Source: Actinomycetota bacterium
GTDB lineage: Bacteria; Actinomycetota; Actinomycetes; Nanopelagicales; Nanopelagicaceae
Assembly (NCBI GenBank): GCA_026392765.1
Contig: JAPLBL010000034.1
Location: 1 to 45,110, forward strand
Direction: 5' to 3'
Length of the DNA: 45,110 nt
Under the pieces are notes generated by a model. That model was given only the letters and a program-made list of their open reading frames with translations. It ran no database searches and was not told the origin of the DNA. Positions 1 to 17,932 of this stretch are shown piece after piece. Each line of letters opens with the position of its first letter. Position 1 is the first letter of the stretch. A program made the translations under genes and the position numbers.

Positions 1-2597
1 GATGAAGCAACACCATTTTCATCTGCTGCTGTGTATTTCAACGGCGCAGTTTGAGCTGGCTTCTCATCAACGCCGCGAGCTTTCACCTGTGATCCATCAC
101 CTTCGATAGTGACTTCAACGTTAAAGACAAGGCTTGCAAGCTCTTCCTTAATAGCATCCATCATCGCTGCAAAGAGTTCATATCCTTCGCGCTGATATTC
201 AACCAATGGGTCACGTTGTGCCATGGCACGAAGTCCAATTCCCTCTTGGAGATAATCCATCTCATAGAGGTGCTCGCGCCACTTGCGATCAAGGACAGAG
301 AGTAGAACCTTGCGCTCGAGCTCGCGTAATACATCGACGCCAAGATCTTCTTCGCGCTTCTTATATGCAGCAGCTGCATCATCCAGGATGCGAGCCTCAA
401 GAAAATCAACATCGAGTGCTGAAGATGATCCAACCTCAGCGATGATCTGCTCAGGTGTAAATGAAATTGGATAGATAAGCTTGAGAGCTGTCCAGAGCTG
501 CGCTAGATCCCAATCTTCTCCAAAACCTTGTGCAGCAGCTGCACGCACATATGCAGACAAAGTATCTGCCATAAAGTCATTGACCTGCTCACCGATATCT
601 TTACCTTCAAGAACTAAGCGGCGCTCTCCATAAATCACTTCACGTTGGCGGTTCATGACATCGTCATACTTCAAAACATTCTTTCGGATTTCAAAGTTCT
701 GAGCTTCAACCTGTGTCTGGGCTGAGCGAATTGCATTTGAGACCATCTTGGATTCGATGGGTTCATCTTCAGGTAGTCCTGCAGCTGCTAATACTCGCTC
801 AACAATTCCTGAGTTAAAGCGGCGCATCAAATCATCTTGAAGTGAGAGATAAAAACGAGATTCACCAGGATCGCCTTGGCGACCTGAACGACCACGCAGC
901 TGGTTATCAATACGACGTGATTCGTGGCGCTCAGTTCCTAATACATAGAGACCGCCCAGTGAAATCACTTCTTCATGTTCTCTAGCGATTGCATCTTTCT
1001 GCTTTGCAATCTCTGCTGGCCATGCAGCTTCATACTCAGGTGCGTTATCTACTGGAGAAAGCCCACGACGTTGAAGTTCGAAATCTGCCATGAACTCAGG
1101 GTTTCCACCGAGCATGATGTCAGTACCGCGACCTGCCATATTGGTTGCAACGGTGACTGCGCCCTTCACGCCTGCGCGAGCAACGATTGCTGCTTCGCGC
1201 TCATGATGTTTAGCGTTCAATACTTCGTGGGGAACGCCCGCTTTCTTTAAGAATGCTGAGAGTTCTTCAGACTTTTCAACGCTGACAGTTCCGACCAATA
1301 CTGGCTGGCCTTTGCGATGGCGTTCGACGATATCGCGAGTAACGGCTGCAAACTTTCCTACTTCAGATTTATAGACCAAGTCAGCTTGATCAAGGCGTTG
1401 CATATCGCGGTTTGTAGGAATAGGAACAACACCAAGCTTGTAGATTTGGTGGAATTCAGATGCCTCAGTCATGGCAGTACCTGTCATGCCTGAAATAGTT
1501 TCGTAGAGACGGAAGTAGTTCTGCAGCGTAATCGTTGCCAGAGTCTGGTTCTCATCTTTGATTTCAATACGTTCTTTTGCCTCAAGTGCTTGGTGTAGAC
1601 CTTCGCTATAGCGACGCCCTGCCAGCATGCGTCCTGTGTGCTCATCAACGATCAAAAGCTCGCCATTCATCACTACATAATCCTTATCGCGCTTAAAGAG
1701 CTCTTTAGCGCGCACTGAGTTATTGAGATAGCCAATCAGCGTTGTATTTGCTGCCTCATAGAGGTTTTCAATCTTAAGAAGCTCTTCGACCTTTGTGACG
1801 CCATCTTCAAGAATGCCGACGGTCTTCTTCTTCTCATCAACCTCATAGTGCGCATCACGCTGGAGCTTGCCCGCAATATTTGCAAACTCGACATACCACT
1901 TGGTTGCTTTATCAGCTGGTCCGCTGATGATCAGAGGTGTACGAGCTTCATCGATAAGAATGGAGTCCACTTCATCGACAACTGCGAAGAAATGATCACG
2001 CTGAACACAATCTTCGAGTGACCACGCCATATTGTCGCGAAGGTAATCAAAGCCAAATTCATTGTTTGTGCCGTAGGTAATATCTGACATATATGCAGCG
2101 CGACGCTCTGCAGGAGTCATACTGTTAAGAATGACGCCAACGCTTAAACCAAGGAAACGATGGATACGACCCATCCATTCACTATCGCGCTCAGCGAGAT
2201 AATCATTGACTGTAACGACGTGAACACCTCGACCTGCAAGAGCATTGAGGTAGGAAGGAAGAGTTGCAACGAGAGTCTTTCCTTCACCGGTACGCATTTC
2301 GGCGATATTTCCGCTGTGAAGTGCTGCCCCGCCCATTAACTGAACATCGTAATGACGCTGACCCAAGGTGCGCTGTGCTGCTTCACGGACAACTGCAAAT
2401 GCCTCTGGCATTAGGTCATCAAGAGTTTCACCTTGTGTAAAGCGTGACTTGAATTCTTCTGTCTTTGCGCGCAGCTGCTCGTCAGATAGTGGAGTGATGG
2501 AAGCTTCAAGGGCATTGACCTTGTCGACGATCTTGCTCAAGTCGCGAAGGATTTTACCTTCGCCAGCTCGCATGATTCGATCGAGAATTGAAGCCAT
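1..2597 (-). CDS. secA: Protein translocase ATPase SecA (3' end cut by window edge)
   Basis: Motor ATPase that drives unfolded preproteins through the SecYEG channel at the cytoplasmic membrane. The start is ATG at 2597, giving [15 protein letters not shown], with a GGAAGG ribosome site about 8 bases upstream. The reading frame stays open for 865 codons to the window edge, so only a short C-terminal tail is missing. Visible motifs are the Walker [10 protein letters not shown], the DEAD-like Walker [18 protein letters not shown], and the NBD2 motif [17 protein letters not shown]. Whether a C-terminal zinc-binding tail follows cannot be seen. It lies 47 bases downstream of comF on the same strand. 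In many actinobacteria hpf lies between comF and secA; here nothing fits in that gap. Identity is certain. Confidence 0.98.
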
Positions 2598-13630: not shown

Positions 13631-14566
13631 GAGCTTTTGTGAGAGGTAATGAGCACTTTTCTGAACCCCTGCGGCAACTGCTGTGCCATGGGCGATAAAT
13701 GAATGTGAGAGCCGGGCTCCATCGCCGATCATGACGTCATCTCCAATGATGCAGTCATCGATATGAACCCCTGCGCCAATGGTGCAGCGAGCACCGATAG
13801 ATGTTCCACCGGTAATCACCGCATCGGGTGCAATGGTGGTGCCAGCCATCGCCTGGAAATCGCCTTCAACAAGATCGCGCGAGCCCTTAAAGAGCGCCGC
13901 TGGTGTGCCCACATCTAACCAATAGGACTGTTCTTTATATCCAAAGACAGACCTACCACTTGCAACGAGTGCGGGGAAAGTTTCGCGTTCAACACTGACT
14001 ACTGTGCCGAGAGGGATTTTATCAATGACATCAGGGCTAAATACATAGCATCCAGCATTGATTGAGTTCGTGACTGGGTTATCCATCTTCTCAAGAAAAG
14101 CTGTGACGCGACCATCGGCATCGGTTGGAACACAACCAAAGGCGCGAGCATCTTCCACTTCAATCAAGTGAAGAGTGACATCTGCCTTGTTATCGGTATG
14201 AAACTTGATTTGATCGGCAATCGAATGACGACTTAAGACATCACCATTGAAGACAACTACTGGTTCATCTCGTCCAAGTAGCTCTGCAGCATTACGAATT
14301 GCACCACCTGTGCCAAGAGGTTCTTTCTCAACGGCGTAGAGGATCTTCATCCCCCATTTAGCGCCATCTCCGAAGTACGGCGTAAAGACATCTGCAAGAT
14401 ATGAGGTTGCTAAAACGAGTGTGTGAACTCCAGCTTTCTTCGCAGCAAGGATTTGATGTTCTGTGACAGGAAGACCTGCAACAGGAAGCATCGGCTTAGG
14501 TGATTCATCCGTCAGAGGTTTCAGTCGTGTACCAAAACCACCGACTAAAAGAATGCCTACAGCCAT
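13610..14566 (-). CDS. manC: Mannose-1-phosphate guanylyltransferase
   Basis: A nucleotidyltransferase of 318 residues that makes GDP-mannose from mannose-1-phosphate and GTP. The N-terminal signature is GGFGTRLKPLTDESPKPMLP, with the metal-binding FNGDVLS further on. The C-terminus is a left-handed beta-helix of hexapeptide repeats (from about residue 250: APDAVITGGTSIGARCTIGAG). The frame is open upstream to 14752, but the true start is ATG 14566 (MAVGILLVGGFG), whose A is shared with the dapC stop (TAATG overlap), so translation is coupled. The substrate is inferred from neighbouring phosphomannomutase and whiB genes, as for Rv3264c. A glucose-1-phosphate specificity cannot be excluded by sequence alone. 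Confidence 0.88.
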   Translation of the reverse strand: MAVGILLVGGFGTRLKPLTDESPKPMLPVAGLPVTEHQILAAKKAGVHTLVLATSYLADVFTPYFGDGAKWGMKILYAVEKEPLGTGGAIRNAAELLGRDEPVVVFNGDVLSRHSIADQIKFHTDNKADVTLHLIEVEDARAFGCVPTDADGRVTAFLEKMDNPVTNSINAGCYVFSPDVIDKIPLGTVVSVERETFPALVASGRSVFGYKEQSYWLDVGTPAALFKGSRDLVEGDFQAMAGTTIAPDAVITGGTSIGARCTIGAGVHIDDCIIGDDVMIGDGARLSHSFIAHGTAVAAGVQKSAHYLSQKLDLPIIV

Positions 14567-15663
14567 TATTTGGCACCTACTTTGCTGGTGATGCGTGCTG
14601 CAGCATCTTTTATCTGCGCATCCGTTGCAGTCAGTGCAATACGAATATGTGATGATCCGCCTTCGCCATAGAAGATTCCGGGAGTTGCGATGATGCCAAG
14701 ATCTGCAAGCCATGAGACTGAATCCCAACAATCTTCCTTGCGGGTGGCCCAAATATAGAGCCCAGCTTCTGAATCTTCGATCGTAAATCCTGCTGCAACA
14801 AGAGCGGGGGCAAGTGTTGCGCGACGGGCGTTATAGCGCCCACGTTGTTCTGTCACATGCTTTTCATCAGAGAGAGCTGCAATCATCGCGTGCTGCACAG
14901 GCAAGGGCACCATCATCCCTGCATGTTTGCGCACCTCAAGGATTCGAGCAATCAACGCAGCATCTCCCACAATAAAGGCAGCTCGATATCCCGCCATAGA
15001 TGAGCGCTTGGAGAGTGAGAGGACAGAGAGAATGTTGGTGTTATCTCCCCCTGTGTATTGCAAGATGGATGTCGGTTTTACGGAATCTCCAAATTCGAGA
15101 TAGCACTCATCAGAGACGACAACGCTCTTGTGCTTGCGTGACCAATCGATTGCAGCCTTTAACTCGGCTTCAGTATGAACGCGACCTGTCGGGTTCGATG
15201 GTGAGTTCACCCATGCCATATCTGCCTGTGGCCATGAAGTGGCATCAAGTGAGACGGGAGTCGCCACAGCTTGTGCAAGAAGAGAGCCCACCACATAGGT
15301 TGGATATGCAACATCAGGATAGAGAACGCTTTGTGCTTCAATGAAAGTAGGAAGCCATGCAACAAACTCTTTTGAACCAATAAGTGGAAGCACACCGAAG
15401 TCACCTGTTGCTCCAAGATATTTCTTTGCCCATGCCGTGATTGCTTCACGCAGTTCAGGAGTTCCAACGGTGACGGGATAACCTGGTGAGTTAGATGCTT
15501 TCTGAAATGCTTGCTGAATAAATTCAGGAGTTGGATCTACTGGTGTTCCCACCGAGAGATCGATTGCTCCTTGTGGGTGCGCTCTTGCGATAGCTCCGTA
15601 TGGGGCTAGCGCATCCCAAGGAAAATCAGGAAGTTTTTGGCGCAAGAGCAGTGACTTCTGCAT
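14566..15663 (-). CDS. dapC: Succinyldiaminopimelate transaminase
   Basis: PLP-dependent class I aminotransferase of 365 residues for the N-succinyl branch of lysine and diaminopimelate synthesis. The family start motif LPDFPWDALAPYG appears near the N-terminus. Other landmarks are DLSVGTPVDPTPEFI, NSPSNPTGRVH, SDECYLEFGD and the PLP-lysine segment SLSKRSSMAGYR. The frame is open up to 15867 but the upstream part is antisense-quality sequence over the ferredoxin gene. ATG 15663 gives the expected N-terminus and overlaps the ferredoxin stop by 38 bases; a TTG at 15645 would reduce the overlap to 20. dapD, the preceding pathway step, is at 32737. Confidence 0.92.
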   Translation of the reverse strand: MQKSLLLRQKLPDFPWDALAPYGAIARAHPQGAIDLSVGTPVDPTPEFIQQAFQKASNSPGYPVTVGTPELREAITAWAKKYLGATGDFGVLPLIGSKEFVAWLPTFIEAQSVLYPDVAYPTYVVGSLLAQAVATPVSLDATSWPQADMAWVNSPSNPTGRVHTEAELKAAIDWSRKHKSVVVSDECYLEFGDSVKPTSILQYTGGDNTNILSVLSLSKRSSMAGYRAAFIVGDAALIARILEVRKHAGMMVPLPVQHAMIAALSDEKHVTEQRGRYNARRATLAPALVAAGFTIEDSEAGLYIWATRKEDCWDSVSWLADLGIIATPGIFYGEGGSSHIRIALTATDAQIKDAAARITSKVGAK

Positions 15664-15946
15664 GGTCGGTATTTGTCTCCCCGACCTTCGCAGCTCCCCC
15701 AGGTGAACCGAGTTCAATAAAGAATTCTGTATTGATCTTCTTATAGCCCTGCCACTGTCCCGGAACATCATCTTCGTAGTAGATAGCTTCCACTGGACAT
15801 ACTGGCTCGCACGCACCGCAATCAACGCATTCATCAGGCTGGATATAGAGCATGCGGGTTCCGTCATAGATGCAGTCGACGGGGCACTCCTCGCGGCATG
15901 ACTTATCTTTTACATCCACACACGGTTCAGCAATTACATATGTCAC
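15626..15946 (-). CDS. fdxA: 7Fe ferredoxin (FdxA/FdxC type)
   Basis: A 106-residue soluble electron carrier with one [3Fe-4S] and one [4Fe-4S] cluster. Cluster cysteines are in EPCVDVKDKSCREECPVDC and DECVDCGACEPVCP, and the actinobacterial tail ELGSPGGAAKVGETNTDH follows. Length and sequence are normal for the family. The start is GTG 15946 with GGAGG six bases upstream. The gene pair ferredoxin-dapC is conserved in actinobacteria (Rv1177-Rv1178). It is divergent from the cysS fusion gene; a TAGAAT -10 candidate lies at 15992-15997 on the minus strand. Confidence 0.95.
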   Translation of the reverse strand: MTYVIAEPCVDVKDKSCREECPVDCIYDGTRMLYIQPDECVDCGACEPVCPVEAIYYEDDVPGQWQGYKKINTEFFIELGSPGGAAKVGETNTDHAEVTALAPKTS

Positions 15947-15991
15947 GAAAGTCCTCCGGGGGCTTTAAATACTTTTGAGCGGTCGGCGGTA

Positions 15992-15997
15992 ATTCTA
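15992..15997 (-). promoter_or_regulatory. Candidate -10 element for ferredoxin gene
   Basis: TAGAAT on the minus strand, about 46 bases before the GTG start. It leaves room for the strong GGAGG ribosome site. No good -35 is visible, and the element lies in the 68-base divergent gap shared with cysS. Confidence 0.35.
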
Positions 15998-16014
15998 ACC
16001 CTGCAGGAGCGCCC

Positions 16015-17619
16015 GTGCACGATTATGGTTGCTATATGGCCTCCATGAGTTTGCGCACGCAAATAGCGCAGGCGCTCGGCAAGCGAGCGACTATCCGCCT
16101 GCGCGATAGCGATGGGGCCGTGCGAGATATCGTGGGCGTTTTACAGAGTGAGACAGCTGTGGTCAATCGCCGTGGTGAAGTAGTGAACTTCAACCCTGAT
16201 GAGGCCGTGGCCTTTCGAGTGATCCCTGTATTTAATCGTCGTGATGTGTCGACAGGTTCACTATCCATCTATGACACCAAATCAAAATCATTACATACTA
16301 TTGCCGGCACTGACGGAGTAGTGCGGATCTATTGCTGTGGACCGACTGTCTATCGCGATGCTCATGTGGGCAACCTTCGCACTTTCTTGCTCTCAGATCT
16401 CATCTCTCGCACTCTGCAGATGACAGGACTTGATGTGAGCTTGGTGCAGAACATCACCGATGTTGGCCATATGGCAGATGATTTTGAAGAAGACAAGATG
16501 TTGGCAGAGTCTGCAAAGACAAAGGTCGACCCTTTCGAAATTGCACGCAAATTTGAAGATAGATTCCATATTGATTTAGAGCGTCTGAATATTCAGCCAG
16601 CAGCTTCATATCCACGAGCATCAGAGAAGATGGCTGAGATGATTACTGCAATCGAGAAATTGATTGCGATGAAGCGCGCTTATGTTGGTAGCGATGGATC
16701 TGTCTACTTTGATGCAACATCTTTCCCCACTTATGGCGCTCTGAGTGGAAATAAACTTGATTCACTTCAACCAGGACATCGATATGAATTCACCGATGAA
16801 GGTGGCAAGCGTTTTCATGCAGATTGGGCGCTCTGGAAATTAGCAGGTGCTCGAACACAAATGATTTGGGATTCACCATGGGGTGCTGGTTTTCCCGGGT
16901 GGCATATCGAGTGCAGCGCAATGTCTATTGAGCTCCTTGATGCTCACGTCGATCTTCACCTTGGCGGTATTGATCTGCGTTTTCCTCACCATGAAAATGA
17001 GCGAGCACAATCGAACTCACTCACAGGTAATGAAACCGTTGATACGTGGGTTCATGGCGAGCACCTGCTCTTTGAGGGGCGCAAGATGTCAAAGAGCGCA
17101 GGAAATGTTGTCCTGCTGCAGGATGTTATTGATCGTGGGTTGGATCCACTCTCCTTGCGTTTTGCACTCCTTGAGAACCGATACCGCTCTCAGATGGATT
17201 TAAGTTGGGCATCTCTTGAAGCAGCTCATTCCACTCTTAAACGATGGAGACAGCTACTGAGTAATGCTGGGACAAGTGCGGAGATGAAATTTGATCAAGA
17301 AGTAAGTGATGCCCTAACAACTGATCTCGACACACCACGAGCTATGCAGCGCATTCGCACCATTGAAAAAGACTCAACTATTGGGGCACTCGATAAACGC
17401 GCTCTCTTTCTCTTTGCAGATCAAGTGTTCGGGTTAGACCTTGATCGTGGAGTTGAACAACGAGAAGTAAGTACTGAGATTCAAGCCTTATTGGATGCTC
17501 GTATCACAGCGCGTGCTGAGAAAAATTGGAGCTTGAGTGATTCTTTACGTGAGCAATTAACTCATGCTGGACTTGAAATCAATGATGGAGCAGAAGGTCA
17601 AAGTTGGAGCTGGAAGTAG
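16015..17619 (+). CDS. cysS: Cysteinyl-tRNA synthetase with N-terminal SH3-like extension
   Basis: A 534-residue protein. From about residue 83 it is a class I cysteinyl-tRNA synthetase that attaches cysteine to tRNA-Cys. Visible are the zinc cysteine and HIGH-type motif CCGPTVYRDAHVGN (107-120), FPGWHIECSAMS, the zinc histidines in IDLRFPHHENE and the KMSKS loop near 358. HHENE and CGPTVY indicate CysRS, not the mycothiol ligase MshC. Residues 14-76 (LGKRATIRLRDSDGAVRDIV onward) form an extra beta-rich domain resembling the SH3-like N-terminus of the actinobacterial Rv0428c-type acetyltransferases, which is not normal in CysRS. The GTG start at 16015 is supported by CAGGAG five bases upstream. 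Whether it is the only cysS of the genome cannot be judged here. Confidence 0.88.
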   Translation: MHDYGCYMASMSLRTQIAQALGKRATIRLRDSDGAVRDIVGVLQSETAVVNRRGEVVNFNPDEAVAFRVIPVFNRRDVSTGSLSIYDTKSKSLHTIAGTDGVVRIYCCGPTVYRDAHVGNLRTFLLSDLISRTLQMTGLDVSLVQNITDVGHMADDFEEDKMLAESAKTKVDPFEIARKFEDRFHIDLERLNIQPAASYPRASEKMAEMITAIEKLIAMKRAYVGSDGSVYFDATSFPTYGALSGNKLDSLQPGHRYEFTDEGGKRFHADWALWKLAGARTQMIWDSPWGAGFPGWHIECSAMSIELLDAHVDLHLGGIDLRFPHHENERAQSNSLTGNETVDTWVHGEHLLFEGRKMSKSAGNVVLLQDVIDRGLDPLSLRFALLENRYRSQMDLSWASLEAAHSTLKRWRQLLSNAGTSAEMKFDQEVSDALTTDLDTPRAMQRIRTIEKDSTIGALDKRALFLFADQVFGLDLDRGVEQREVSTEIQALLDARITARAEKNWSLSDSLREQLTHAGLEINDGAEGQSWSWK

Positions 17620-17620
17620 C

Positions 17621-17932
17621 TTAAGGATTGCGTAAGACTGCAACAACGCCTGCAACAAAGCCGATAGTCAAGAGTGCACTGCCTTGGTTATCTCCTTGAA
17701 TCAGAAGTTCCTCACCAACGCCAAATGAACCAGCAATCGAAATCACAGCCAACCAAGCAATGAGGGCGATGAGTTTGTAGCGACGCTTTCCATAATGGCG
17801 ACCCACATACCAAATACCTAAATAGGTAGCGAAGATTCCAACGCTCACTCCCACTGGCGGCAAGGTCTGGTGCACAAGAGTTGAGGAAATAGCAATCATT
17901 GCGCCAAAGAGGAGTGAGGATAGAAATTGCAT
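17621..17932 (-). CDS. DUF6113-like small membrane protein
   Basis: A 103-residue hydrophobic protein with about four membrane segments (near 5-22, 25-42, 53-70 and 83-99) separated by a basic loop GRHYGKRRYK. In other actinobacteria a DUF6113 protein follows mshB, which matches this position; function unknown. Its start shares a base with the mshB stop (TAATG), so it is translated with it. The stop lies one base from the convergent cysS stop. Confidence 0.65.
   Translation of the reverse strand: MQFLSSLLFGAMIAISSTLVHQTLPPVGVSVGIFATYLGIWYVGRHYGKRRYKLIALIAWLAVISIAGSFGVGEELLIQGDNQGSALLTIGFVAGVVAVLRNP

Follow-up and report, generated by a model that had tools for sequence, protein, structure and literature searches.

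An SH3-like N-terminal domain on a second cysteinyl-tRNA synthetase of Nanopelagicaceae

The locus

The window analysed here is a stretch of 45,110 nucleotides from a Nanopelagicaceae genome (contig JAPLBL010000034.1). In it, a gene that joins a small SH3-like domain to a cysteinyl-tRNA synthetase (here CysRS-II, gene cysS-II) stands divergent from a ferredoxin gene. The features are as follows.

14566..15663, reverse strand: dapC-type aminotransferase gene, downstream of fdxA
15626..15946, reverse strand: fdxA, 7Fe-type ferredoxin, the divergent neighbour
15992..15997, reverse strand: probable -10 box TAGAAT of fdxA, predicted from the conservation of ATTCTAA in intergenic alignments
16024..16029, forward strand: -10-like box TATGGT, 6 nt before ATG 16036, proposed from conservation
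16036..17619, forward strand: fused SH3-CysRS-II gene, 527 aa, most likely ATG start, alternative ATG at 16045
16072..16218, forward strand: SH3-like barrel of PF24551 type; with its N-terminal helix, the modelled core spans about 16048-16221
16222..16260, forward strand: linker (PVFNRRD...), typical of the window's fusion clade and different in other clades; pLDDT 64-77
16261..17616, forward strand: CysRS-II, with HVGN and KMSKS signatures and invariant Cys/His/Glu positions; CysS_C at about 17464-17607

The fusion is not an assembly artefact, since the same architecture occurs in G041, G043 and G045, each of which is assembled as one contig and 99% complete. Convergent with the fused gene lies a reverse-strand gene (17621-17932) whose 103-aa product is probably a membrane protein and matches no Pfam family; a similar ORF keeps the same place in genomes that have lost cysS-II.

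Start codon and promoter of the fused gene

The frame of the fused ORF is open from 15979 to 17619 on the forward strand, and an earlier note on this DNA had taken a CAGGAG site five bases before GTG 16015 as proof that the extension is translated. The intergenic alignments contradict a start at this GTG. In fused loci the stretch from GTG 16015 to 16029 is conserved as DNA, with the pattern CCTGCA-N17-TANNGT, so that the supposed ribosome-binding site sits within promoter-like sequence; close relatives have an in-frame TAA or TAG between GTG 16015 and the SH3 domain; and conservation of the gene in relatives begins only from ATG 16036 onward. Because the stops of relatives close the upstream frame, translation likely starts at ATG 16036 or ATG 16045, with GTG 16015 inside the promoter-like stretch, as judged from these alignments. 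The extension of about 75 residues that precedes the CysRS part is real and translated (see below), and with either ATG as its start it is 7-10 residues shorter than in the earlier note. The TANNGT box also precedes orphan SH3 genes and acetyltransferase-type (GNAT-type) genes, not just the fused ones; a consensus promoter scan did not report the proposed -10 box TATGGT at 16024-16029. Leaderless messages are common in actinobacteria, and as ATG 16036 lies only 6 nt behind the -10-like box, the mRNA is possibly leaderless if that codon is used.

The SH3-like module

The first 70-80 residues of the fused protein match a single Pfam family, SH3_Rv0428c (PF24551). Taken alone, the window's N-terminus aligns with E 2e-4 and 21.8 bits, against a gathering score of 27 bits; overall, the window copy scores 17-21.8 bits with nearly the whole profile aligned. 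A fused relative, G138, reaches 34.8 bits and so passes the gathering score, and other orphan and GNAT-version SH3 domains score up to 29.7 bits. In the AlphaFold2 model of the domain an N-terminal helix is followed by a barrel of five strands; pLDDT exceeds 90 in the core, and the same fold is present within the model of the full-length protein (mean pLDDT 87.8). The likeness to the Rv0428c N-terminus that had been suggested from the sequence is supported.

Fold searches return small SH3/Sm-like barrels at Z 6.6-8.2, among them GerQ, Hfq, the RimP C-domain, GatD and WYL domains. Such matches to a model, at Z about 7-8, mark a fold class only and give no pointer to function. The model superposes on Mycobacterium smegmatis RimP at 1.7 Å over 60 residues, and one orphan SH3 matches DUF150_C at 5e-4; kinship with the RimP C-terminal SH3 domain (PF17384) was nevertheless rejected, as the hhalign probability is about 1% or less despite the superposing folds. 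A search of PDB sequences with the SH3 profile found no homologue. By its predicted fold the module may dock to RNA or to a protein, and because similar barrels bind both, the fold does not choose between the two. The binding of tRNA or the ribosome that the earlier note suggested may hold, on the strength of a broad likeness in fold class.

The second cysteinyl-tRNA synthetase

The fused ORF scores 383 bits with TIGR00435, over the equivalog cut-off of 340, and matches both PF01406 and CysS_C, and so encodes a complete CysRS. Across the CysRS-II alignment the HxGN, KM(S/A)KS, Cys and HHE.E columns are invariant. With the MshC model TIGR03447 the window enzyme scores 239 bits, below the cut-off of 485, and in the tree CysRS-II forms a distinct clade, separate from both MshC and the canonical CysRS of actinobacteria. 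It was found in 42 genomes out of a class-wide sample of 197. Canonical CysRS and MshC co-occur with CysRS-II in all near-complete relatives, among them G045, in which the fused protein shares 98% identity with that of the window; the canonical cysS for which the earlier note had advised looking is therefore present in relatives, and the idea that the fused enzyme is the cell's only CysRS was rejected. An MshC-like gene occurs elsewhere in the window genome, and the missing canonical CysRS fits that genome's completeness of 81.6%.

CysRS-II retains the catalytic signatures and, save in five fusions of genus g20, the anticodon domain. With these intact, CysRS-II probably remains an aminoacylating enzyme for tRNA-Cys, in an auxiliary role. 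The g20 exceptions (L178, L182, L184, L185 and L193) stop before the anticodon domain, as MshC does, and their genomes have a canonical CysRS. The open-access literature held no account of an SH3-CysRS fusion or of a second actinobacterial CysRS. As a separate observation, a gene upstream of murB (L003:1034-1924, contig C60 of G000) encodes a protein like family 2 glycosyltransferases that is headed by a CysS_C-like CysRS anticodon domain; many relatives have an ORF of about this length that gives the same match.

The acetyltransferase neighbour

In GNAT-type relatives the gene next to cysS-II scores 77.8 bits with PF24553 (Rv0428c_C), over the cut-off, and aligns over its full length with NF049894, the model of the N-acetylglutamate synthase Cg3035, at 120.6 bits against an equivalog cut-off of 280. 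The suggestion that an Rv0428c/CG3035-type acetyltransferase can stand opposite fdxA-dapC is supported in relatives, and it has been published as well: homologues of cg3035 outside the Corynebacteriales often adjoin a ferredoxin gene, and within the Corynebacteriales the SH3-GNAT gene adjoins def and xthA (Petri et al., 2013, PMC3827942). Nor is there an fdxA near the SH3-GNAT copy of G027. An Escherichia coli argA mutant is complemented even by a cg3035 clone from which about 200 bp at the 5' end are missing (PMC3827942); that stretch is the SH3 region, so the SH3 part is dispensable for acetyltransferase activity. Above-cut-off matches to Rv0428c_C are absent from the window genome and from all GNAT-less genomes tested, in which only short generic GNAT matches below the cut-off occur, and relocation of the GNAT domain to another site in these genomes was rejected on this ground.

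Survey of relatives and evolutionary history

The locus was compared across 120-121 syntenic loci from the family and class, classified with profiles for FdxA, DapC, SH3, GNAT and CysRS-II; many of the genomes are MAGs, and the single-contig ones show the same architecture states. Among the contigs, L237, L239, L253, L268 and L277 are Nanopelagicales-like MAG contigs whose public labels read Streptomycetaceae or Bifidobacterium breve. What had been proposed as a survey of the gene opposite fdxA and of cysS N-termini yielded a graded series from SH3-GNAT through orphan SH3 to fusion and bare cysS, with fdxA divergent from the SH3/cysS side in all 121 loci. Within the family, an SH3-GNAT gene is followed by cysS at 34 loci and stands without it at 4; an orphan SH3 gene (64-100 aa) precedes cysS at 42, and at 36 of these the two genes share 4 nt (ATGA/GTGA) in which the SH3 gene stops and cysS starts; the two are fused at 30; one locus has SH3 without cysS; and at 5, all in genus g23 (L150, L161, L166, L169 and L170), a cysS without SH3 lies directly opposite fdxA. 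In ten genomes of g23 the module was not found anywhere. Other families of the class have an orphan SH3 opposite fdxA, with and without CysRS-II. In one family (G030), the SH3 opposite fdxA is joined to another partner, a short RimI-like GNAT (L204, about 1599-2291, reverse strand).

A tree was built from DapC, FdxA and CysRS-II, with the SH3 and GNAT columns excluded and with SH-aLRT as the only branch support. On it the GNAT domain is lost independently at least 7 and up to 10 times, the SH3 module is lost in one genus (g23), and the fusions form five separate clades, a result unchanged when weak branches are collapsed. The linkers differ from clade to clade, as independent fusion events predict. 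An intermediate stage, a separate SH3 mini-gene overlapping cysS, is extant in several genera, and from the 4-nt overlap a small frame change would suffice for fusion. The ancestral order opposite fdxA was an SH3-GNAT gene of Rv0428c/CG3035 type and then cysS-II; repeated deletion of the GNAT part left the SH3 part in one of three states, namely a mini-gene that overlaps cysS-II, a mini-gene on its own or, as in the window, an in-frame fusion to CysRS-II. This evolutionary path we regard as nearly certain. The earlier suggestion that cysS had replaced the acetyltransferase part holds in that the SH3 start and promoter were kept, and it fails in that the GNAT was deleted with cysS already the next gene.

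Selection on the module

Eight genomes of the window's own genus have neither CysRS-II nor GNAT and carry a lone SH3 gene of 65-73 aa opposite fdxA. Pairwise dN/dS values, pooled from few or non-independent pairs, are 0.17 for these lone genes, 0.12 for orphan SH3 with cysS and 0.08 for the SH3 part of fused genes (3 pairs only), compared with 0.07 for CysRS and 0.14 for GNAT. The closeness of the fused SH3 value to that of the CysRS part is the reason for which the extension is taken to be translated. The purifying selection on the lone copies, which persist without CysRS-II, indicates that the SH3 is the constant part of the locus, with a function that would be independent of both partners. 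Relative to CysRS, orphan SH3 evolves at a rate ratio of about 0.8-1.06 in four genera, with g21 an exception at 1.46; GNAT-attached SH3 evolves at 1.25-1.55, that is, faster than most orphans; and the fused version, at 1.24-1.34, is not slower than the GNAT version, so tethering need not be strongly selected.

Function of the module

These observations fit an SH3-like barrel that would be a binding module in its own right, with a ligand (RNA or protein) that is required whatever the partner. Fusion, or the 4-nt overlap, would then set the module 1:1 with CysRS-II and so tether the enzyme to that ligand. That the barrel binds independently and CysRS-II is tethered to it is judged the most likely explanation because the SH3 outlives both partners, although we hold it to be evenly poised between right and wrong; against it counts genus g23, which keeps CysRS-II and dispenses with the SH3. 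The full account, in which repeated GNAT loss, a self-standing module and a tethered CysRS-II are combined, appears to us somewhat better than even. That the 65-aa protein represents a new, independently functional small binding family of actinobacteria, with its place at the head of Rv0428c/Cg3035 acetyltransferases only one partnership among several, is a more tentative proposal, which we would not yet back over its negation.

The five fusion clades and the 36 four-nucleotide overlaps could also be read, in the Rosetta-stone manner, as signs of a functional pair, in which the SH3 is an accessory dedicated to CysRS-II and serves either to strengthen tRNA binding or to place the enzyme. RNA is a frequent ligand of Sm/SH3-like barrels, and the structural matches include RimP as well as GatD, which belongs to a tRNA-dependent amidotransferase. 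This reading is weakened by the SH3 copies that stand alone, in the eight genomes without CysRS-II and also in other families, and CysRS-II in turn exists without SH3 in g23 and in many distant relatives; we consider it unlikely, if the most serious of the alternatives. The same lone copies, still in place after the loss of both partners, together with an fdxA opposite the module in all 121 loci and in nearly all outgroup SH3 loci, would suit a module that acts on the divergent fdxA-dapC genes, as a regulator or a ferredoxin partner, with CysRS-II a co-transcribed passenger. Here the Corynebacteriales genes beside def and xthA (PMC3827942) and the G027 copy, which has no fdxA nearby, speak against it, as does the presence of fdxA without SH3 in g23, and we think it improbable.

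Two further explanations can be given little weight. CysRS-II and the GNAT might form a second small-thiol ligase and acetyltransferase pair, parallel to MshC (a CysRS paralogue) and MshD (a GNAT), given that a CysRS paralogue adjoins a GNAT gene and that the five g20 fusions lack the anticodon domain, as MshC does; yet the GNAT is of the CG3035 N-acetylglutamate synthase type, most CysRS-II genomes have no GNAT, and CysRS-II mostly keeps its anticodon domain and does not group with MshC, so we find the idea quite implausible. Least credible of all is that the SH3 is a neutral scar, kept only as the carrier of a promoter and start codon. The promoter does stand directly before the SH3, which stays when the GNAT goes, but dN/dS of 0.08-0.17 across fused, orphan and lone SH3 reveals purifying selection at the protein level, on which ground the scar was rejected; moreover, cysS of g23 follows the fdxA intergenic region without any SH3, and the lone copies serve no downstream gene.

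In a setting of tiny freshwater actinobacteria, one bacterial family preserves every stage of a domain's move between enzymes, several times over, which is rare. An N-terminal domain usually taken as part of an acetyltransferase is here the conserved core of the locus, and an uncharacterised second CysRS is kept in genomes that rank among the most streamlined of any free-living organisms known and would not be expected to carry spare genes. New here are the distinct second CysRS clade and the lone SH3 kept without CysRS-II. If the module does form a binding family of its own, its repeated fusion to CysRS-II would join a spare CysRS to a partner in the cell that has so far gone unrecognised.

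Relation to known systems

The module probably belongs to the same sequence family as SH3_Rv0428c (PF24551), with a fused relative passing the gathering score, and occupies the same N-terminal position; PF24551 acetyltransferases outside the Corynebacteriales likewise lie opposite a ferredoxin gene. The difference is that here the domain heads a CysRS or stands free rather than heading a GNAT, and that the window copy falls below the curated cut-off. The neighbour gene of relatives aligns over its whole length with the N-acetylglutamate synthase C-NAGS Cg3035 of Corynebacterium glutamicum (PMC3827942), but it remains under the equivalog cut-off, and the window genome has no such gene. With bacterial CysRS (E. 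coli 1li5, 3tqo, 6ujd) the synthetase shares the catalytic core, the HIGH and KMSKS signatures, the Zn-site residues and the C-terminal anticodon domain, whereas those enzymes have no SH3-like N-terminal appendix, and the window enzyme's clade is apart from the co-occurring canonical CysRS. MshC, of mycothiol synthesis, is also a CysRS paralogue in the same genomes and shares the theme of an adjacent GNAT, but forms a separate clade without the anticodon domain. Finally, the methionyl-tRNA synthetase of Mycoplasma penetrans, with its aminotransferase domain, is likewise a case of a domain joined at a synthetase N-terminus (PMC7694997); in contrast, the domain described here is a small binding-type barrel, its origin in an upstream gene is known, and all intermediates survive.
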